This document shows, piece after piece, positions 28,092 to 38,075 of a stretch of DNA of 38,075 bases. The notes beneath the pieces are model-generated. The model had not been told where the DNA came from. It saw only the letters and a list, made by a program, of their open reading frames with translations, and searched no databases. Source of the DNA: a bacterium (lineage in GTDB: Bacteria > Verrucomicrobiota > Kiritimatiellia > CAIKKV01 > CAITUY01); assembly GCA_037143175.1 (NCBI GenBank), contig JBAWZF010000025.1, positions 1 to 38,075 of the forward strand. The letters are read 5' to 3'. A program made the position numbers and the translations under genes. Within the stretch, counting starts at the first letter, position 1; every line of letters begins with the position of its first letter.

Positions 28092-30641
28092 ATGAACATA
28101 CAAACAGATCCAAATGAAGAGTTCAGTCTTGCAGGAATACGAATTCTAGTGGTAGATGATGATGAAGTCATACGCCTGCTCGCCCAGCGCGTGCTCATGT
28201 CGCGTCACGCCGCAGTTGAAGTGGCTGAAAACGGCCGCTCGGCTTTACAGATTTTACTCCGGCAGGACTTTGATCTGGTGCTGGTTGACCTGCGGATGCA
28301 GGAAATGGATGGCATTACTTTCATTCAGGAGGCCCGTAACATCTGGCCATGGCTGGGCTTTGTGATTATGACCGGCTATATGGATGATGTGTCCTCTGAT
28401 CTTTCTTCCACCCTGGGGGTTACGCGCGTGCTTGCCAAACCGGTTCGTCCGAATCAGCTCTGTCAGGTTTTGATGGAGGAATATAAAGAGCGTCGACTGG
28501 GGGTGGGAATGGCGGGCCCCGGGATGGAACAGCATCAGCGTCAGTTGCGGATGTTGGGGCATCTGGGCGAAACGGCGTTGGCTTCGGGCACCTTTGTTGA
28601 GGCTTTGCAGGACTTGAGCGAAGGGCTTGGCGAACTACTGGGGTGCGATGTTGCAGGCTTGTTGGGTTTCTCTGAAGGGCAGAATGTGGTTGTGCTGACG
28701 GCGCAGAATGCGGTGGCGGAATCTTTCCTGTCAAACTGTCATCAGGAAATGGTCTCTCGTTATGAGGCCTTAAGCGGGAAGAAGACAGGGCAAATCGAAT
28801 GGCGTGTGCAGATGGAGGGGGTTCCCAGTTCACCGGAAGGACCGGCATTGCCCGGGCGCCTCATGACGATCCCGTTATTGGTCAATAATGAGATTCATGG
28901 AATTTTACTATTAGGGGCGGCTGAGGCGGAAAAGATTGCGGCAATCGATATTTCCTTTGTCTATCACATCGCGAACGTCCTCTCTTCTATTTTGGCTGCT
29001 GTTACCCGAATCCGGCAATTGGCTGCCCACGATTCCCTGACGGGGCTTTTTAATCGGGAATATTTTGAGGAGCAGGCGGAGCGGGCCTGGCAGTTAGCAC
29101 GACGATATGGGCATCATATGGCTGTTGCCATTATGGATGTGGATCATTTTAAAGCCGTCAATGACACCAATGGGCATCTGGCGGGCGATCAAGTTCTTCA
29201 TGAATTCGCCGACATTCTCAAAAAGGCGGCACGGGGTTCAGATGTGGTGGCGCGGTATGGGGGAGATGAGTTTGTGGTCATGTTGCCGCAGGCTGATCTG
29301 GCGTCCGGGATGGCCGTGGTAAATCGTATTCGAAGTGCCGTGGAGGAAAATGTGTTTTGTGCCAAAACACTAAATCTTAAATTAACCACTTCCATCGGAT
29401 TAGCCACGAGTCTGGGCATTGAGCCTACGGCCTCGGCAACGGATATTCTGAGTTTGGCGGATGCTGGACTCTATATGGCCAAACGGGAAGGACGCAACCG
29501 AGTTCGCTTATGCACCAAGGAGCTTGGCAAAGACGGCGAAGTCGTCACAGGGGATGGAGTATCTGCAGGGGAAAAGGCCATGTCCAGTATCAGGACGCAT
29601 CCCTGCATTCTGATTGTTGATGATGATCCGCTGATTCTCCAAACTCTGCAGGCAGTTTTGCGTGGGAGTGGCTATTTGACGGATACGGCCAGTGTTCCAG
29701 AGGAAGCATTACGTAAGGCGCAGGAGGCACCCGGAGCTTATGATGTCGCCGTCCTCGACCTGAATATGCCGGAAACCAGTGGATTGGAATTGCTGACGGC
29801 ACTTCGGCAAACGGATAGTTTTATCATGCCGGTGGTCATGACGGGCTATGCGACCAAGGAAAATGCAGTCCAGTCCTTGCGACAGGGCGCGTTTGAATTT
29901 ATTGAAAAGCCAGTCATGTCGGAAGAATTGCTGGCGGTTATCGAGAAGGCGTTGGATCATCGCCGCCTGAAAGTGGAGAATGAACGGTATCGCTCCCACC
30001 TCGAGGAGATGGTGCGGCAAAAAAGTGTTGATTTGCTCAAAGCCATGGATGAGCTGAAACAGGTGCATGAATTTACCTTGCAGGCCATGGCGCGTATGCT
30101 GGATGAACGCGAACATGCCACCGGTCAGCACAGTAATCGGGTTCGCGCTCTCAGTTCTGTACTGGGCAAAGCGATGAGTTTGCCTCGCAAAGAGTTGGAT
30201 ATTCTTTCTCATGGGGCTCAGTTGCACGATATTGGTAAAATCTCCGTGCCGGACCGTATCCTGCTTAAGAACGGCTCTCTGACTGATGATGAGTGGAAAG
30301 TGATGAAAACACATCCGGAAGTAGGGTATAACATTCTAGCCTCAAGTCCCTATCTCAAGGATGTGGCCGAACTTGTTCGCTCTCATCAGGAACGCTATGA
30401 CGGGAAGGGCTATCCCCGCGGTCTGAAAGGCGATGCTATCTGTTTGGGCGCGAGAATATTTGCCGTGATTGATGCTTATGATGCCATGCGCTCCGACCGG
30501 CCCTACAGGAAGGCGATGTCGCCCGAACAGGCTGCGGTGGAGATCCGGAATGGTTGCGGGTACCAGTTTGATCCTGCAGTGGTCGACGCTTTCCTCAGGC
30601 ATCAGGATCAAATGGAAGCAGAAGGCGGCTGGGCACTCTGA
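28092..30641 (+). CDS. REC-GAF-GGDEF-REC-HD-GYP cyclic-di-GMP signalling protein
   Basis: An 849-residue cytoplasmic protein with both synthesis and breakdown modules for cyclic di-GMP. Residues 15-130 are a receiver (VVDDDE, phospho-acceptor in LVDLRM, Lys in VLAKP). A GAF-like region covers about 160-310. The GGDEF domain has an intact GGDEF motif at 390-394 and the inhibitory site RGSD at 381-384, five residues before it. A second receiver begins near 504 (ILIVDDDPL, VLDLNMP, MTGYATKEN, EKPVM). The HD-GYP domain has His712-Asp713 in HDIGK and Gly773-Tyr774-Pro775 in DGKGYP. All key residues are present, so both activities are plausible. It converges on the response-regulator gene with a 34-nt overlap. 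Confidence 0.95.
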   Translation: MNIQTDPNEEFSLAGIRILVVDDDEVIRLLAQRVLMSRHAAVEVAENGRSALQILLRQDFDLVLVDLRMQEMDGITFIQEARNIWPWLGFVIMTGYMDDVSSDLSSTLGVTRVLAKPVRPNQLCQVLMEEYKERRLGVGMAGPGMEQHQRQLRMLGHLGETALASGTFVEALQDLSEGLGELLGCDVAGLLGFSEGQNVVVLTAQNAVAESFLSNCHQEMVSRYEALSGKKTGQIEWRVQMEGVPSSPEGPALPGRLMTIPLLVNNEIHGILLLGAAEAEKIAAIDISFVYHIANVLSSILAAVTRIRQLAAHDSLTGLFNREYFEEQAERAWQLARRYGHHMAVAIMDVDHFKAVNDTNGHLAGDQVLHEFADILKKAARGSDVVARYGGDEFVVMLPQADLASGMAVVNRIRSAVEENVFCAKTLNLKLTTSIGLATSLGIEPTASATDILSLADAGLYMAKREGRNRVRLCTKELGKDGEVVTGDGVSAGEKAMSSIRTHPCILIVDDDPLILQTLQAVLRGSGYLTDTASVPEEALRKAQEAPGAYDVAVLDLNMPETSGLELLTALRQTDSFIMPVVMTGYATKENAVQSLRQGAFEFIEKPVMSEELLAVIEKALDHRRLKVENERYRSHLEEMVRQKSVDLLKAMDELKQVHEFTLQAMARMLDEREHATGQHSNRVRALSSVLGKAMSLPRKELDILSHGAQLHDIGKISVPDRILLKNGSLTDDEWKVMKTHPEVGYNILASSPYLKDVAELVRSHQERYDGKGYPRGLKGDAICLGARIFAVIDAYDAMRSDRPYRKAMSPEQAAVEIRNGCGYQFDPAVVDAFLRHQDQMEAEGGWAL

Positions 30642-32029
30642 GTGGGAAGATCTGCATGCCGGAGCTTGTTGTATTGAATACCCAATTCTCTAATCTTATA
30701 CCCCAGAATTCGGCGGGTTGTGCCGAGTAATTTGGCGGCTTTAGTTTGAACCCCGTTTGTCGACTGCAACGCATGAAGGATCATTTCCCGTTCGCAGGCG
30801 GCTACAGCGTCATCCAATGGAGCGGTGAAGTCTTGTTGCGCAGGCAGGATGCGTTCAGGTTTCTTATAAATGGATTCGGGGAGATGTTCGGGAAGAATCT
30901 CGGTTTTCTTGCTGTGCAGGACAAGGGTTCTCTCCACTATGTTTCGTAATTCCCGAATGTTTCCGGGCCATGTATAACGGGCTAGAAGCGACATGGCATC
31001 GGAAGAAAAACTTTGCACGGTGAAACTCATGCTCTTTTTGAAAGTTTGCAGGAAGTGGCGTGTCAGAAGAGGCACATCCCCTGCTCGCTCCCGTAAGGGG
31101 GGGAGCGTGATGGGGACGACGTTCAACCGGTAAAAGAGATCGTCGCGGAAACGATGCATGCGAACTTCATCTTCCAGGATTCTGGAAGTGGCCGTGATGA
31201 TTCTGGCATGGGTTCGAATAACCTGTGTCCCCCCTAATCGCATGTATTCACGTTCTTGTAATACCCGGAGCAGTTTGACCTGTATCGGCAGTGACATTTC
31301 CCCCACTTCGTCAAAAAAAAGTGTACCTGATCCGGCTAGATCAAATCGTCCAAGCTTGCGCGTATCAGCACCGGTAAAAGCCCCTTTTTCATGCCCGAAC
31401 AGCTCGCTCTCCATCAGGGTCTCAGGTAGAGCTGAGCAATGAATCGGAATAAAGGGATCTTCCGCACGCGGACTTAAGTTATGGAGGCGGCGGGCAATCA
31501 GTTCTTTTCCTGTTCCGCTTTCTCCCTGGATCAGGATAGTGGCGTCGCTGTCGGCTGCCTGCGCAACAGCCTCCAGGGTTTTTATGAAAGTGGGGGATTG
31601 CCCGATAAGGCCATCGTTAGAGTATTCCGGGGCAATTTCATGCTGCAAAACCTCTACTTTGCGCCGTAAGGCCGAGGTTTCAAGGACCCGGCTCACAATA
31701 CGACGTATTTCATCCACGTCGAATGGCTTCATTACAAAATCACAGGCGCCGGCCTTAATGGCGTCTACAACAGGGCGCACGGAAAGGGAGGCGCTGACCA
31801 TGATGCAGGGAAGGCCCGGATATAGATCATTCAACTCTTTCAGGAGCGTCACCCCGTCTTTTTCCGGCATGATAACGTCCAGCAGCACAATGTCCACGGG
31901 GTGTCTGGCGAGTTGTGTCAGTGCCTGTTCTGCATTTTCTGCAAGGTGAGTTCGGTAAAGGGTTGTGAAGATCTGGCGGAGGGATTCCCTGCTGCCGCGG
32001 TCATCATCAACAATGAGTATGGATTTCAA
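30608..32029 (-). CDS. Sigma-54-dependent response regulator (NtrC family)
   Basis: A 473-residue activator of RNA polymerase sigma-54 holoenzyme. The receiver domain has Asp8-Asp9-Asp10, phospho-acceptor Asp51 and Lys101. The AAA+ domain has Walker A GESGTGKE (169-176), the sigma-54-contacting loop GAFTGA (216-221) and GTLFFDEVGEM. A Fis-type helix-turn-helix lies near 427-449 (QTKAAKLLGTTRRILGYKI). This is the last gene of the minus-strand operon, overlapping the kinase gene upstream by four bases. The architecture agrees with PrsR of PEP-CTERM/EPS regulation, and an exosortase is encoded 20 kb away, but the assignment is inference and a general NtrC-like regulator fits as well. Its end overlaps the HD-GYP gene. 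Confidence 0.94.
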   Translation of the reverse strand: MKSILIVDDDRGSRESLRQIFTTLYRTHLAENAEQALTQLARHPVDIVLLDVIMPEKDGVTLLKELNDLYPGLPCIMVSASLSVRPVVDAIKAGACDFVMKPFDVDEIRRIVSRVLETSALRRKVEVLQHEIAPEYSNDGLIGQSPTFIKTLEAVAQAADSDATILIQGESGTGKELIARRLHNLSPRAEDPFIPIHCSALPETLMESELFGHEKGAFTGADTRKLGRFDLAGSGTLFFDEVGEMSLPIQVKLLRVLQEREYMRLGGTQVIRTHARIITATSRILEDEVRMHRFRDDLFYRLNVVPITLPPLRERAGDVPLLTRHFLQTFKKSMSFTVQSFSSDAMSLLARYTWPGNIRELRNIVERTLVLHSKKTEILPEHLPESIYKKPERILPAQQDFTAPLDDAVAACEREMILHALQSTNGVQTKAAKLLGTTRRILGYKIRELGIQYNKLRHADLPTQSAQPPSASI

Positions 32030-34035
32030 GGTGTTTCCTCCTCGAGTTGGGTTGCGACGGGTAGGTGGATGGTGGCGAGTACCCCGAATTCATTGGAGTG
32101 GAGCGCAATCTTTCCTTGATGGTCAAGAATGGTTCGGCGGGCGATCGGGAGCCCGAGCCCAAGACCGCGGGCCTTCGTGGTGGAGAACGGGGAAAACGCT
32201 TTATCCACCAATGCCGGAAGTATCCCGGGACCATTATCCTTAATGGTGATGACAATCCCGGGTAGGGGACCGGATTCCATGGCGATTGTCATGGTGATCT
32301 CTCCTTTAGGGGTGGGCGTCAGCGCTTCGGCTGCGTTCTTGATTAAGTGTACAAAGGCCTCGCCTAATGCGCGTTCGTCACCCGGCACCTTTGGTAAATT
32401 TTCCGGGGCGGTCAAGGTGACCTTGATATTGGGGGCAGGCGTTGGAAAAACAAGAGAGAGACTTGATTCCAGACACCGCTTAATTCCAAGAGGTTTGAAA
32501 TTGAGAGAGGGTGGATTTGCAAAGGCGTGGATCTGATCCACGATGCTATTCAGACGCTCAATCTCAGAGGAGACCAGATCCCTGAATTCATGTTGAAAAT
32601 CCTTATCCTCGTATCGTTCAGGAAGGAGTTGTGCAAACGTCTTTATGGCCACAAGAGGATTTCGTACTTCATGTGACAGGCTGGCGGCAAGTTCGGTCCA
32701 GAAAGTGGCGCGATCCAACCGATCTTGTTGTTCCTTCATGGAATTCTGGTCGGTGGTATCCTGAACGACGGCCACGGCACCGAGACAGCGGGTCTGGTTG
32801 GCAAGACGCTGTGTGCGTGTTACCAGATTCCGCTGGGTATCTTGTTGGATCCATTCGCTGGACTGCGATGCGCCGCTCTCTCCGAGGGTTCTGCGCAGCA
32901 GATCTGCCAGACGACTCCCCAAGCCCTCCACGGGCCGGCCTATAGCGGTCTCGGCGTTGACACCAAATAAGGCTTGGGCCGATTCATTGTACCATCGTAC
33001 GATCCCCGAATCGTCTACAGCAATAATGCCGCTGGGCATGGAGTGAAGCAGGGTTTCGGCTAAGGCCTTTTGAATAGTAGCTTCCTCATAGAGCAAGGCA
33101 TTCTCAAGGGTTGTGGAAACGCATTCGGTCAGGCTGATCAGATGATCCAAGTGGCGTTTCTCAAGCGGAAGCCCCGAGGAAAGCTGGCCGACAAACAGCC
33201 AGCCTAGGAGCCGGTGGTGGGATTGTAGCGGGATGAGCACTTCGGCGCCCATTTGGTCTAGCATGTCCCGCAGCATCAATCGATCGGAGACCTCCCGGAT
33301 ATGGTCGAGATGAGGATGGGAGACGGCATGCGTGTGGAGGGTCATCCAATTGACGTAGGGATGGTTTTCTCCGAATTCAAGCGACACGGAGGACTCGAGG
33401 CAGCGCAGACCGGCGCGGAGTCGATAGGCGGCGATATCGCGAGTTCTACTGAAAATTCCAATACGTGAGACCCGCAGGGCGTCGGCAACTTCGTCAACAA
33501 GCCGTTGCAACAGGGATTCAACGTTGGTGAAATGACGCATCGCCGCAGAAAAATCGCGAATATCGAAGGAAGGGTCGGGTTCTGCCTGAGGTCTGTTCTG
33601 GAGGGCCTCTGCCACAACGGTCAGCCGCAAGGTCTCCTGCCGAAGAAGGACATTTTCAGAAGCCAGTTCCAGGTGGCGGAGAGCCCGTTGCACCAGACAG
33701 TTCACCCTGTGGCGGTCCATAACCGGGTCGGGCTCGGTGGCGTAGACATCACTTTGTTGAGCCTGAAGCATGGGGTCGGAGCCGGGGATACCAAACGCGA
33801 TAACAAGGGCATGGGGATAATTCCGATTAACAAGACCCAACAGGCCGAGGGCTTCCCGGGTCTGCAAATCCAGGAGCAGAACACGGTCTTGCTGCTGCTC
33901 AAGCTCCTTCTGGACACGGATAGGGGTTTCGAGATGGCGCACCACGGCGAGAGTCCCCAGCATGGTGCCCATTCGGGTAGCCCATGCCTCATTGGTACTG
34001 AACAACAGGCAGGTGGATCCAGATGAGTGCGTCAT
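32026..34035 (-). CDS. Soluble histidine kinase with degenerate receiver, GAF and PAS domains
   Basis: A 669-residue kinase without membrane segments. Residues 7-115 resemble a receiver: hydrophobic strands and Asp56 in VLLLDLQ remain, but the N-terminal acidic pair is replaced by STN and the conserved lysine is absent, so it is probably a pseudo-receiver. GAF-like sequence follows (near 150-325), then PAS (near 330-435). The H-box HEVRNPLVAIKTFAQLLPERY carries His455; the ATPase domain has HLIKNAAEAL, DNGPGI and ARGLGLGLPIARR. The H-box and flanks closely match those of the kinase encoded just upstream, suggesting duplication. It overlaps both neighbours by four bases and probably serves the sigma-54 regulator. 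Confidence 0.9.
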   Translation of the reverse strand: MTHSSGSTCLLFSTNEAWATRMGTMLGTLAVVRHLETPIRVQKELEQQQDRVLLLDLQTREALGLLGLVNRNYPHALVIAFGIPGSDPMLQAQQSDVYATEPDPVMDRHRVNCLVQRALRHLELASENVLLRQETLRLTVVAEALQNRPQAEPDPSFDIRDFSAAMRHFTNVESLLQRLVDEVADALRVSRIGIFSRTRDIAAYRLRAGLRCLESSVSLEFGENHPYVNWMTLHTHAVSHPHLDHIREVSDRLMLRDMLDQMGAEVLIPLQSHHRLLGWLFVGQLSSGLPLEKRHLDHLISLTECVSTTLENALLYEEATIQKALAETLLHSMPSGIIAVDDSGIVRWYNESAQALFGVNAETAIGRPVEGLGSRLADLLRRTLGESGASQSSEWIQQDTQRNLVTRTQRLANQTRCLGAVAVVQDTTDQNSMKEQQDRLDRATFWTELAASLSHEVRNPLVAIKTFAQLLPERYEDKDFQHEFRDLVSSEIERLNSIVDQIHAFANPPSLNFKPLGIKRCLESSLSLVFPTPAPNIKVTLTAPENLPKVPGDERALGEAFVHLIKNAAEALTPTPKGEITMTIAMESGPLPGIVITIKDNGPGILPALVDKAFSPFSTTKARGLGLGLPIARRTILDHQGKIALHSNEFGVLATIHLPVATQLEEETP

Positions 34036-36545
34036 GCTGGTTTGTCCTCCTTAAGCAAGGGGAGGGCGATGGTAAATGTCGTGCCGCGTCCAGATTCGCT
34101 CTTTACGTCAATCAGGCCGTTATGCTCCTGAATGATCCCATGGGCTACTGATAAGCCCAGCCCTGTTCCTTGAGACTTGGTGGTGAAAAAGGGATCAAAG
34201 ATGTGCATGAGATCCTCCGGAGAAATGCCCTCGCCGGTATCCTGAATGCGGACCAGAATCATGGGGCGATCCGGATGCCCATTCCACCATGCACTTAAGG
34301 GGTGTTCGGGGGATGGCTGGCTCGTAACGACCGTGAGCGTACCACCCTGTTCCATCGCCTCAATAGCGTTCAGGAAGAAATTTATGAAAGCCTGACTGAG
34401 TTGATCACCATCAGCATTGATATAGTCCGGCGAGATCGCGAAGGAAGTGGAGAGTTGAATATTCTTGGAACGCATTTGCTGCTGGAGGAGTTTGAGGGTG
34501 TTGCTCAGCAGGTCATGGAGAGAAATGGCCGCCAGGACAGGCTTTGAAGGGCGTGAGAACCGGAGAAGCTGGTTGACGATTGAGTCAATGCGTTTGACTT
34601 CACCGCCTACCAGAGACGAGAACGTCTCGCGGAAATCGGCATCGTCATAGCGTTCGGGCATCAGTTGGGTGAACGTTTTGATGGAGACAAGAGGATTTTT
34701 AATTTCATGCGCCATGCCAGCGGCGAGGGTACCCAAGCTCGCCAGTCGGTCAGTACGCCGGACCTGAAGTTCAAGCTGTCGGATGGTCGTGAGGTCGTTG
34801 ATCACCAGAAACGCTCCCAGTTTTTTCCCCGCATGCCCATAGATAGCCGAACTGCTGATCCGGAGCGGGATGGGCTCGCCATGCGATTGAGAGAGGGCAT
34901 AATCCTGGTTTGTAATGGCGAGGCTGCCACTCAGCGACTCTTTAAGAAGGTTTCCAAGAGGGTTCGGTAATAGGCCCAAGGGTTGCGTCAGCGTTTCGGC
35001 TGCTGACAGACCGGTGATCCGCTGGGCCTCCCGGTTAAAGACGGTGATGGCTCCATCGACGTTCGCGGCGATCACACCGCTGACGAGGCTGTCCACCAGG
35101 GTTTCGTTGTATATTTTGCTGTCCTGCAATTGGGTGTAGAGCCGGGCATTGTTAAGCGCCACAGCCAGTTGATTACAGAGAAGCTGCAATGCATGTTGTT
35201 CAGGGGCACCATAGATTGAACCCGATAGCCGGGGGCCAAGAAGGACGATGCCCTCTAGGCCCTCCTGTGAGCGTAGGCTGACCGCGGCGGCGAATTGATT
35301 CTGATCCAGCAGACGGCACGCCGCTGCGACGAGGGCAGTGGGTTTCAGGCGATGAATGATAACAGGAACAAGCGGTTCATCCCATTCGAGGAGTGCCTGA
35401 GGGATAGGGCTATTCCTGCTTAGCGTGAGAACCTCGTTGTCCTCGGCTTTTGGATAACGTTGAACATAACGTGAGTCCTCGCCGATGAAGATGCAGACAC
35501 GATCCGTGCCAATGGTCTTAATGAGGAGATCCGCGAACTCGTGAAGGAGTGTTTCGACAGTGCGTATGGAGAGCATGAGCGCGTTAGCTGAACGCATTAG
35601 ATCGCTTATGTTAAGGGTCGCGAAGTTCACAAATAGGCGGGCGGCTACCTGCTGCATCAGCCCGCTGGCGGGTACCATGGAAAAGGCTACCACAAGGGAG
35701 GCAATAAAATAAGAGAGAGCAGGGAGTGGGATCCAGAGTTTTTGGAGAACGAAGTTGAGAAGCAGGCATGTTCCCGCGTAAAGCAAGGCCAGCCAGGCGA
35801 ATAACAGGGCATAGGCTGTTAGCCGCCTCATGAAATAGGCCACATCCATGATGCGCCGGGTGGCGATGCCATAGGCGATAACAATATAAAGACAGAGGAC
35901 GGAAAGGGGCGTGAGTTGCACCGATTGGGAGTTGTTGGTGAACAGCGGAATCACCAGTGCGGTGACAATGCCGATAAATACGCTGGAGCCGCTTCCCAGA
36001 AAGATAAACTGCAGCTCCGTTTTTTGGATCCCGACAGAGTTCCTGAGATCACGAACAAAACGATACAGTAGCGTCATCAGGCCGAACACGAAAAAGACAC
36101 CATAGATTGGAAAAGCGATACTGTAAACGGGATCTGGGATCGAGCGTGCGGTCTCTGCGGTTGTGGTGGCGTAGGAGGCTCCTAAAATAAAAAAGCGGGT
36201 TAATGAAACGAGCCCCATGGCGACTGAGATTGTGAACCAAAGCAGGGATTTCGAGAGGATGCGACGCCAGGATTCTGTCGGACGGACGATGGTCGCGCGC
36301 AATAAGTCGAAGCAGACGGGAATCATGGCCCCGATCATCATGCAACCCCGTATGAATATGGCGGCGACATCGAGGTTCGGCGCAAGAAAAGCCGAGGCCA
36401 TGCAGCTTTGCCAAACCAGAAGGAGCAGGGAAAGGATGAGAAAAGATTGGTTCGCGCGGCGTTGTGGATTGGTATAGAAAACAAAAAGTCCAACCATCAG
36501 GTCGATGGCGATGATGAGGAAGTGAAACACTGAAAGTAGATTCAT
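34032..36545 (-). CDS. Membrane sensor histidine kinase (multi-TM, GAF, PAS)
   Basis: An 837-residue sensor kinase. The first 300 residues contain about eight hydrophobic segments (starting LLSVFHFLIIAIDLMVGLFVFY), similar to membrane-sensing N termini of PrsK-like and 7TM kinases. A GAF-like domain follows (about 310-465), PAS (about 480-590), then the dimerisation helix with His613 in MAHEIKNPLVSIKTFTQLMPERY and an ATPase domain with FFLNAIEAM, DTGEGI and SQGTGLGLSVAHG. I place the start at ATG 36545, one base beyond the ketosynthase stop. A longer frame from 36602 overlaps that gene by 56 nt and lacks support. The input is unknown; lipid or cell-envelope state is one guess because of the ketosynthase neighbour. 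Confidence 0.9.
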   Translation of the reverse strand: MNLLSVFHFLIIAIDLMVGLFVFYTNPQRRANQSFLILSLLLLVWQSCMASAFLAPNLDVAAIFIRGCMMIGAMIPVCFDLLRATIVRPTESWRRILSKSLLWFTISVAMGLVSLTRFFILGASYATTTAETARSIPDPVYSIAFPIYGVFFVFGLMTLLYRFVRDLRNSVGIQKTELQFIFLGSGSSVFIGIVTALVIPLFTNNSQSVQLTPLSVLCLYIVIAYGIATRRIMDVAYFMRRLTAYALLFAWLALLYAGTCLLLNFVLQKLWIPLPALSYFIASLVVAFSMVPASGLMQQVAARLFVNFATLNISDLMRSANALMLSIRTVETLLHEFADLLIKTIGTDRVCIFIGEDSRYVQRYPKAEDNEVLTLSRNSPIPQALLEWDEPLVPVIIHRLKPTALVAAACRLLDQNQFAAAVSLRSQEGLEGIVLLGPRLSGSIYGAPEQHALQLLCNQLAVALNNARLYTQLQDSKIYNETLVDSLVSGVIAANVDGAITVFNREAQRITGLSAAETLTQPLGLLPNPLGNLLKESLSGSLAITNQDYALSQSHGEPIPLRISSSAIYGHAGKKLGAFLVINDLTTIRQLELQVRRTDRLASLGTLAAGMAHEIKNPLVSIKTFTQLMPERYDDADFRETFSSLVGGEVKRIDSIVNQLLRFSRPSKPVLAAISLHDLLSNTLKLLQQQMRSKNIQLSTSFAISPDYINADGDQLSQAFINFFLNAIEAMEQGGTLTVVTSQPSPEHPLSAWWNGHPDRPMILVRIQDTGEGISPEDLMHIFDPFFTTKSQGTGLGLSVAHGIIQEHNGLIDVKSESGRGTTFTIALPLLKEDKPA

Positions 36546-36546
36546 C

Positions 36547-37785
36547 TCATGAAACCCTTTCGGTGATAAGGCAGCTATTTCCTCCTCCGAGGCCGTGCGC
36601 ATTAATCAGGATACAGTTTAGATGCGCATGTCTCGCATGGAGTGGAACATAGTCGAGATCGCATTCGAGATCTGGCTTTTCGAGGTTCGCCGTGGGCGGG
36701 ATTATTCCGTGGCGGGTCGCCAGGGAACAGGCGATAAGTTGAAACGGCCCTGCAGCGGATAAGGGGTTGCCGGTGACCCCTTTGATGGAACTCACCGGCA
36801 CCTTGTGCGCATGTGTCCCAAATACATTTTTAATCATCTTTGTTTCCATGCGATCCAAGACGGGATGGCCTGGGCCGTGTGCACAAATGAAGTCAACATT
36901 CAGGGGGCGTCGACCCGCATTGGCGAGTGCTTCGTTCATAGTCGCATTCAGGCCTGATCCTGAGACTGCCGGATCAGTGTCAAAACGGGTGGCGTATCCG
37001 GTAATCTCAAGATATGGCTTGGCGTTGCGTGCAAGTGCATGTGTCAAATTTTCAAGGATGAGTATCCCTGCGCCCTCCGAGATGACGCCGGAGTCATGAT
37101 CCGCATCGAATGGGCGGCTGGCTTTCCCGGGGGTCTCATTACGTAAAGAAACTAAGCCGGCCTTTGCCAGACATGCAAAGGTCAGTGGGTTAATGGGCGC
37201 ATCAGTCCCGCCGCAAACAACAACATCCGCGCGGCCTGCGCGGATCAGATCGGCGGCCGCGCCAATGGCGTCAAGTCCAGCCGCACATGCGGAAGCAATG
37301 GTCGTGGACCGTGATATCAGCGGGAAGTTCAGTGCGATAATACTGGCGGCTTGATGGGGCTGGCAGGCATGAACAATGTGTGAAGGAACTTTTTCTGGCC
37401 CCCGCCCCGCCATTCGCTCCATGCCGTGTTCGATAACTTCGATGGCACTCGAACTAACGCCGAGTACCAGGGGTATTGCTTTCTCGGAGATCAGGGTGTC
37501 GCACGATAAATTAGCGTCCAGAAACGCTTGGGCTGTGGCTGCAAGAGCCATTTGTGTCTGACGGGCAAGGCGCTTTGTATTAATGCCCGGCCTAATATGA
37601 ACGGCCGGGTCAAAATCACTCACTTCACCTGCAATTCGACAGGAGTGTTTACTGGCATCAAACAAGGTGATTGTTTTGATTCCACTCCGGCATTCAAGAA
37701 GTGACGACCAAAAGGCTTCTTTACCAATACCATTCGGTGCCACAACGCCAAGTCCCGTAACAACCACTCTATTGTTGTGAGGCAT
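36547..37785 (-). CDS. FabF-like beta-ketoacyl-ACP synthase with altered active site
   Basis: A 412-residue condensing enzyme of the KAS I/II fold: VVVTGLGVVAPNGIG at the N terminus, Cys167 in ASACAAGLDA, His303 in CAHGPGHPVLD, Lys335 in SSIKGVTGN and the glycine-rich C-terminal loop HGLGGGNS. The residue at the place of the second catalytic histidine of FabF (His340) is Asn340. That gives Cys-His-Asn, the triad of FabH/KAS III. The FabF gate Phe is also replaced (GLGG). It may be a specialised elongation or starter-unit synthase, or a non-elongating paralogue. It heads a two-component operon. ATG 37785 is listed; an adjacent in-frame TTG at 37788 is better spaced from GAGGA. Confidence 0.85.
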   Translation of the reverse strand: MPHNNRVVVTGLGVVAPNGIGKEAFWSSLLECRSGIKTITLFDASKHSCRIAGEVSDFDPAVHIRPGINTKRLARQTQMALAATAQAFLDANLSCDTLISEKAIPLVLGVSSSAIEVIEHGMERMAGRGPEKVPSHIVHACQPHQAASIIALNFPLISRSTTIASACAAGLDAIGAAADLIRAGRADVVVCGGTDAPINPLTFACLAKAGLVSLRNETPGKASRPFDADHDSGVISEGAGILILENLTHALARNAKPYLEITGYATRFDTDPAVSGSGLNATMNEALANAGRRPLNVDFICAHGPGHPVLDRMETKMIKNVFGTHAHKVPVSSIKGVTGNPLSAAGPFQLIACSLATRHGIIPPTANLEKPDLECDLDYVPLHARHAHLNCILINAHGLGGGNSCLITERVS

Positions 37786-37852
37786 CAAATTATGTCATCC
37801 TCATTTCTTCTAGGATAAGCATACTATTATAGATAGATCAAGAAAATATGTT

Positions 37853-37893
37853 CGTTTTTGTTCATGTATAATCGCGAAGAATGTTCAAAAACG
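37853..37893. promoter_or_regulatory. Imperfect long dyad, candidate activator or repressor site
   Basis: CGTTTTTGTTCAT (37853-37865) and ATGTTCAAAAACG (37881-37893) are inverted repeats agreeing at 11 of 13 bases, around a 15-nt centre. TGTTC occurs three times, at 37849, 37859 and 37882. Relative to the sigma-54-like promoter downstream it lies at about -91 to -131, the usual distance of enhancer sites for NtrC-type activators. A TATAAT at 37867-37872 lies in the centre but has no proper -35 partner. Confidence 0.42.
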
Positions 37894-37956
37894 TACACAT
37901 CTTCTATATATGGATGATCATGCATTATGATACCACAATATATTGTCGATGACGGG

Positions 37957-37973
37957 TTGGCATGGCCACTGCT
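37957..37973 (+). promoter_or_regulatory. Candidate -24/-12 (sigma-54) promoter
   Basis: TTGGCATG-N4-CTGCT matches the sigma-54 consensus YTGGCACG-N4-TTGCW, with the invariant GG at 37959-37960 and GC at 37971-37972 separated by exactly ten bases. Only the C of CAC and one T of the -12 box differ. Transcription would start near 37984 and run into the gene beginning at 38023, whose AGGGG ribosome site is well placed. Confidence 0.62.
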
Positions 37974-38022
37974 ATATAGATTCAACGTGCATTTAGTGTA
38001 ACAATGACATGAAAGGGGAATT

Positions 38023-38075
38023 ATGAATCAAGATAGAAGTTGGGGATGGATATTGGGCTTGTCGTTGATTATGGC
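38023..38075 (+). CDS. Partial CDS, N-terminus of an unknown (probably exported) protein
   Basis: The frame opens at ATG 38023 behind an AAAGGGG ribosome site and continues to the window edge with 17 visible codons. It encodes MNQDRSWGWILGLSLIM, a short polar start followed by a hydrophobic run that could be a signal peptide or membrane anchor. The family cannot be recognised. It is transcribed away from the ketosynthase/kinase operon and lies behind the sigma-54-like promoter, so it is a likely target of the regulator encoded there. Confidence 0.6.
   Translation, partial: MNQDRSWGWILGLSLIM

Follow-up and report, generated by a model that had tools for sequence, protein, structure and literature searches.

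The question raised by this locus is which activator drives the sigma-54-type promoter lying upstream of a gene cut short by a contig end, and which genes that promoter serves. The window, the whole 38,075-nucleotide stretch analysed, corresponds to contig C25 in an assembly of 107 contigs and 3.3 Mb (G000) and carries a regulator operon divergent from the truncated gene. The preliminary description proposed that the activator encoded at 30608–32029 controls the promoter. Comparisons across genomes favour that proposal, and a canonical enhancer-binding-protein/sigma-54 circuit, a two-armed module in which this regulator would drive fadL and recHK, is given a probability of about 0.87. The features on which the argument relies are the following.

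30608–32029, minus strand: NtrC-family response regulator with REC, AAA+ with GAFTGA and Fis-type HTH (AAKLLGTTRRILGYK), the proposed activator
32026–34035, minus strand: HK2, second histidine kinase, with PAS, HisKA and HATPase domains
34032–36602, minus strand: HK1, histidine kinase with membrane N-terminus, PAS, HisKA and HATPase, syntenic in relatives
36547–37788, minus strand: KS, ketoacyl synthase homologue resembling FabF, encoded first in the regulator operon
37849–37864, no strand: distal operator (putative UAS) TGTTCGTTTTTGTTCA, centre at -115 from the -12 GC, from the de novo motif
37882–37897, no strand: proximal operator (putative UAS) TGTTCAAAAACGTACA, centre at -82 from the -12 GC, from the de novo motif
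37957–37973, plus strand: predicted sigma-54 promoter (-24/-12) TTGGCATGGCCACTGCT, reading toward the divergent gene, from matrix score and conservation
38023–38075, plus strand: 5' end of the gene assigned to fadL, ~17 codons with a signal-peptide start, broken off at the contig end

The TTGGCATGGCCACTGCT element displays GG-N10-GC spacing and is close in sequence to TGGCACN5TTGC, with two departures in the core. Its coordinates and spacing are exactly those of the preliminary description, and it is the top-scoring site on both strands of 101,824 bp of its own genome under a sigma-54 weight matrix whose absolute scores are approximate, the matrix being built on the published consensus. When the 234-bp intergenic region was shuffled with dinucleotides preserved, 0.0006 of the shuffles matched this score on either strand. 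A sigma-70 scan of the same region returned one weak site, below the shuffle count, and none that was outstanding. The proposal had been made dependent on rpoN, which is found in the genome (PF04552, 196 bits) with the RpoN box ARRTVAKYR. The element is conserved in both cassette-bearing congeners and in most AAA+-bearing relatives, and among 34 intergenic regions it points toward fadL in 23 and toward KS in none. Thus 37957–37973 is, on sequence criteria, a genuine sigma-54 promoter.

Chance could be invoked for both the promoter-like sequence and the palindromes, since loose -24/-12 patterns are roughly as frequent as control patterns genome-wide: TGGYAYN6TGCW has 50 matches in the 3.3-Mb genome vs 37 for the reversed-pattern control, so loose matches alone carry little weight. 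With sequence, strand, spacing and position all conserved in many genomes, this explanation is hardly credible. The -24/-12 bases and the upstream half-sites, whose persistence in relatives the preliminary description had made decisive, are kept in the two congeners with the same geometry and across the class.

Upstream of the promoter, an expectation-maximisation motif search, randomly seeded, restricted to palindromes and run on the 34 intergenic regions upstream of divergent fadL genes, recovered the operator consensus TGTACAAWWTTGTACA at 56 sites in 32 of the 34, with 15.2 bits per site vs ~7 bits from shuffled sets. The two window sites, TGTTCGTTTTTGTTCA and TGTTCAAAAACGTACA, are each 16-bp palindromes of the pattern TGT-N10-ACA and lie 33 bp apart. 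Two operator sites fell within one region in 0 of 5000 shuffles, with the window's region included in the matrix training set. Of the inverted repeats in the region, the strongest pairs 37841–37865 with 37881–37905, arms of 25 nt that are 80% complementary. The inverted repeat of the preliminary description is thus real, while its single dyad with 13-bp arms is better read as two palindromic operators; one long inverted repeat was likewise rejected, since some loci have a single operator and every operator is palindromic by itself. The operator centres lie at -82/-115 from the -12 GC in the window and at -81/-114 in both congeners, and the ranges -114 to -116 (distal) and -75 to -86 (proximal) cover several distant loci as well as these three. 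The strict operator matches the 3.3-Mb genome of the window once, at the proximal site; it has one match in G003 and three in G002, one of these at the cassette locus. The relaxed operator occurs at 14 places in the genome of the window and forms a close pair at the window locus only. Since matches are so few genome-wide, the simplest reading is that the cassette regulator would act as a dedicated local regulator.

The target gene begins at 38023, as the preliminary description had placed it, with an ATG preceded by the purine-rich AAGGGGA. In the two congeners with the cassette the divergent gene encodes a complete FadL, matched over the whole protein by Pfam Toluene_X (OMPP1/FadL/TodX). The window's own genome has a single FadL match, which starts with residue 44 and lies at the extreme end of contig C35; it is oriented as expected if C25 and C35 abut, and is 81% identical to the congener orthologues over residues 44–421. 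On C35, recHK (REC-HisKA-HATPase) overlaps fadL, and most later genes match those of the congener locus L114 in order. Because the congener orthologues are complete, the C35 end holds the remainder and the gene order is L114-like, the truncated window gene is almost certainly fadL, with ~25 codons unassembled and the C25/C35 join inferred. The assembly break falls inside fadL and leaves its two parts on two contig ends (38075 and G000:C35:31472). The downstream operon anticipated beyond the contig end is thus represented by the rest of fadL and then recHK, both found at the end of C35. L049, L051 and L052 lack fadL, and there the -24/-12 element and operator stand directly upstream of recHK instead, so that recHK, in addition to fadL, appears to be a conserved output of the module. 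The preliminary description had called this side the effector arm of a two-kinase system; the divergent operon stands as the probable target arm, but it comprises fadL plus a third kinase, recHK, and extends beyond an effector alone.

The closest named relatives of the window kinase are records labelled Kiritimatiellae, Lentisphaerae and Verrucomicrobia, which points to a Kiritimatiellota-like source, and the KS-HK1-HK2-regulator order is syntenic in dozens of genomes from such records. Where a regulator can be identified, most loci have divergent fadL followed by recHK next to the cassette, and regulator-less Spartobacteria/Chthoniobacterales carry a divergent recHK without fadL. For the comparisons below, 114 dereplicated loci were sorted by the regulator ORF following HK2, with regulator classes corrected by hand for L252, L064 and L082, and with presence thresholds of 11.5 (promoter) and 13.5 (operator) set after the first 34 regions. 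Pontiellaceae denotes genus code g57, to which loci of Pontiellaceae- and Pontiella-named records correspond by position and sequence.

The operator follows the HTH of the regulator. Of 49 loci with a TTRRIL-type HTH, 45 have it, vs 0 of 23 without (Fisher 4.5e-15), the loci that trained the operator matrix overlapping those tested; outside the training set, as a partial hold-out, operator sites are found in L049, L051, L052, L077 and L082. On the kinase tree, 6 independent pairs across well-supported branches gave a mean of 5.7 concordant and 0 opposed (median p 0.031). The HTH or regulator occurs without the operator in L078, L079 and L083, which are of Hydrogenedentota type, and in L215. 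Among the Pontiellaceae, HTH-only loci have the operator and the four loci without an HTH ORF have lost it, all of them keeping the promoter. Recognition of the TGTACAAWWTTGTACA-type operator by the HTH of the cassette regulator is thus supported by co-occurrence.

The promoter, in turn, follows the AAA+ domain outside the Pontiellaceae. Where fadL is divergent, 23 of 24 loci with AAA+ and GAFTxA have the -24/-12 element, vs 0 of 13 without (Fisher 4e-9); with the Pontiellaceae counted, the figures are 23 of 24 vs 12 of 25. The tree-corrected test is not significant with or without the Pontiellaceae, its 4 independent pairs being too few for significance. The element is missing in all eight REC-HTH forms and in both forms that have lost GAFTGA (SPFSSN, L055/L243). 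The pattern holds between near-sisters: L253, with GAFTNA, has the promoter, while L243 and L259 have lost GAFTGA and lack it, the operator being kept in all three. Outside the Pontiellaceae, loss of AAA+ from the regulator is thus accompanied, at the level of sequence, by loss of the sigma-54 promoter but not of the operator, and this is the most unusual feature of the module. Variants with GAFTNA, GAFTSA or GAFTHA and an intact target promoter are found in L118, L119, L120, L206, L210, L211, L212, L223, L230, L251, L253 and others. These natural changes occupy the same position as the NorR G266 bypass mutants, of which G266N stays active and escapes repression (PMC2941729).

HTH-only and REC-HTH forms have no AAA+ ring and still retain the operator, as they might if the regulator were a repressor or architectural protein and sigma-54 transcription were activated from elsewhere. 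Such a role is very unlikely for the window regulator, whose AAA+ domain is intact with GAFTGA (Response_reg, Sigma54_activat at 220 bits and HTH_8, with Walker A and ELFGHEKGAFTGAD) and whose operators lie at enhancer distances, clear of the promoter.

The Pontiellaceae form a real exception to the association of AAA+ with the promoter. They display a strong -24/-12 element before fadL, and their regulator is either a ~70-residue HTH-only ORF (L222, L224, L226, L229, L231, L235, L239, L240) or absent (L213, L217, L220, L227); the element is present in 8/8 HTH-only and 4/8 regulator-less loci, all twelve Pontiellaceae. One of their neighbours on the tree, L208, has a regulator of the REC-HTH form and lacks the promoter. 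Because the promoter persists there without an AAA+-bearing cassette regulator, another activator must, on this evidence, serve in the Pontiellaceae. A stand-in for the truncated regulators, in the form of an AAA+ paralogue bearing that HTH, was looked for in 17 genomes, of which nearly all lack a full cassette regulator; among the best matches examined, the HTH signature occurred only in L168, itself a cassette regulator. The same exception, together with the several further NtrC-family proteins of such genomes and the nearness of the operators to the KS start, would suit an arrangement in which some other enhancer-binding protein drives a real -24/-12 promoter and the cassette regulator at the operators mainly controls its own KS operon. 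This arrangement is unlikely for the window. It leaves aside the 23/24 vs 0/13 split outside the Pontiellaceae, the fixed operator-to--12 distances in many loci and the absence of any -24/-12 element toward KS in the 34 regions; moreover, the best-matching other activators in the 17 genomes have different HTH sequences. Control of 37957–37973 by the regulator encoded at 30608–32029 is therefore preferred as very probable, since the operator tracks the HTH, the -24/-12 element tracks AAA+ outside the Pontiellaceae and the genes are syntenic.

Under the preferred circuit, the left arm would comprise the KS-like protein, HK1, HK2 and the NtrC-family regulator, and the right arm fadL, for an outer-membrane lipid/hydrophobe channel, and recHK, for a receiver-kinase hybrid. 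HK1 and/or HK2 would phosphorylate the regulator, as their domains and the operon order suggest. Its Fis-type HTH would then bind the two palindromes at ~-82 and ~-115 from the -12 GC, consistent with their co-occurrence across genomes, and the AAA+ GAFTGA ring would remodel sigma-54 RNA polymerase at 37957–37973, leading to fadL-recHK transcription, a step to which position, conservation and co-loss point. The regulator may also autoregulate the KS operon, because the operators lie 60–110 nt from the KS start as well. FadL and the acyl-enzyme-like KS weakly suggest that the input would probably be a fatty acid or another hydrophobic compound.

The window KS retains the catalytic Cys and the first His, and the second catalytic His is replaced by Asn, leaving the Cys-His-His triad of KAS I/II incomplete. 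In the KS alignment the catalytic Cys is present in 59 of 61 sequences and Asn stands for the second His in 46 of 61; the Spartobacteria-type KS has Tyr in place of the first His. The protein is thus probably not a normal elongating synthase and is possibly an acyl-binding sensor. A REC-GGDEF-REC-HD protein is encoded at 28092–30641 on the plus strand, convergent with the regulator gene, and its homologues adjoin the regulator in both congeners, L047 and L069. These neighbours hint at a c-di-GMP link of the module.

A broader reading, for which the odds are even, is that one operator has been read repeatedly by different machines, so that the locus has stayed in place while its promoter changed class; the module around it would be new, lipid-sensing and phylum-level, and its KS-like protein maybe an acyl sensor. 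The three machines of that reading would be the full REC-AAA+-HTH regulator with sigma-54, the REC-HTH or AAA+-degenerate regulator without -24/-12, and the HTH-only protein of the Pontiellaceae, next to which a different activator would serve the sigma-54 promoter. With the operator unchanged while AAA+ and the sigma-54 promoter disappear together, the locus would offer a natural system for the study of sigma-factor class change. A regulator, operator, promoter and target are now assigned to a cassette found throughout a little-studied group whose members are mostly known through metagenomics.

Paired palindromes upstream of a -24/-12 element beside the activator gene are a standard arrangement. 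NtrBC, AtoSC, ZraSR and NtrYX (group I) similarly combine REC-AAA+(GAFTGA)-Fis HTH regulators with paired kinases, a regulator operon adjoining the target and paired palindromic sites ~80–115 bp upstream of -24/-12. In contrast to these, the window module has its own operator TGTACAAWWTTGTACA, a KS-like first gene and two cassette kinases with a third in the target operon. The NCBIfam equivalog cut-offs are all missed (AtoC 466/714 bits, NtrC 424/559, ZraR 393/760). PrsK and PrsR of XrtA/PEP-CTERM systems are a kinase and an NtrC-family regulator working with sigma-54; that pairing is shared with the window module, although here PrsR (380/503) and PrsK (78 and 63/300) fall below cut-off. A literature search of open-licence papers found no published description of the module, which is, by its sequence, ordinary in mechanism, well supported and new as a system, and is found across many Kiritimatiellota-type genomes. 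Clostridiales enhancer-binding proteins mostly serve one target operon per activator (65% control one) through multiple upstream sites, and 15 groups bind TGT...ACA inverted repeats 10–12 bp apart (PMC6615313); the TGT-N10-ACA of the window is alike, but phylum and target differ. Caulobacter NtrC, without GAFTGA, works at sigma-70 promoters (PMC12421884) and provides a precedent for the sigma-54-free regulation that L243, L259 and the REC-HTH forms would use. Unlike Caulobacter NtrC, the module pairs the loss of GAFTGA with the loss of -24/-12 while the operator stays conserved, and relatives retaining both are found alongside.
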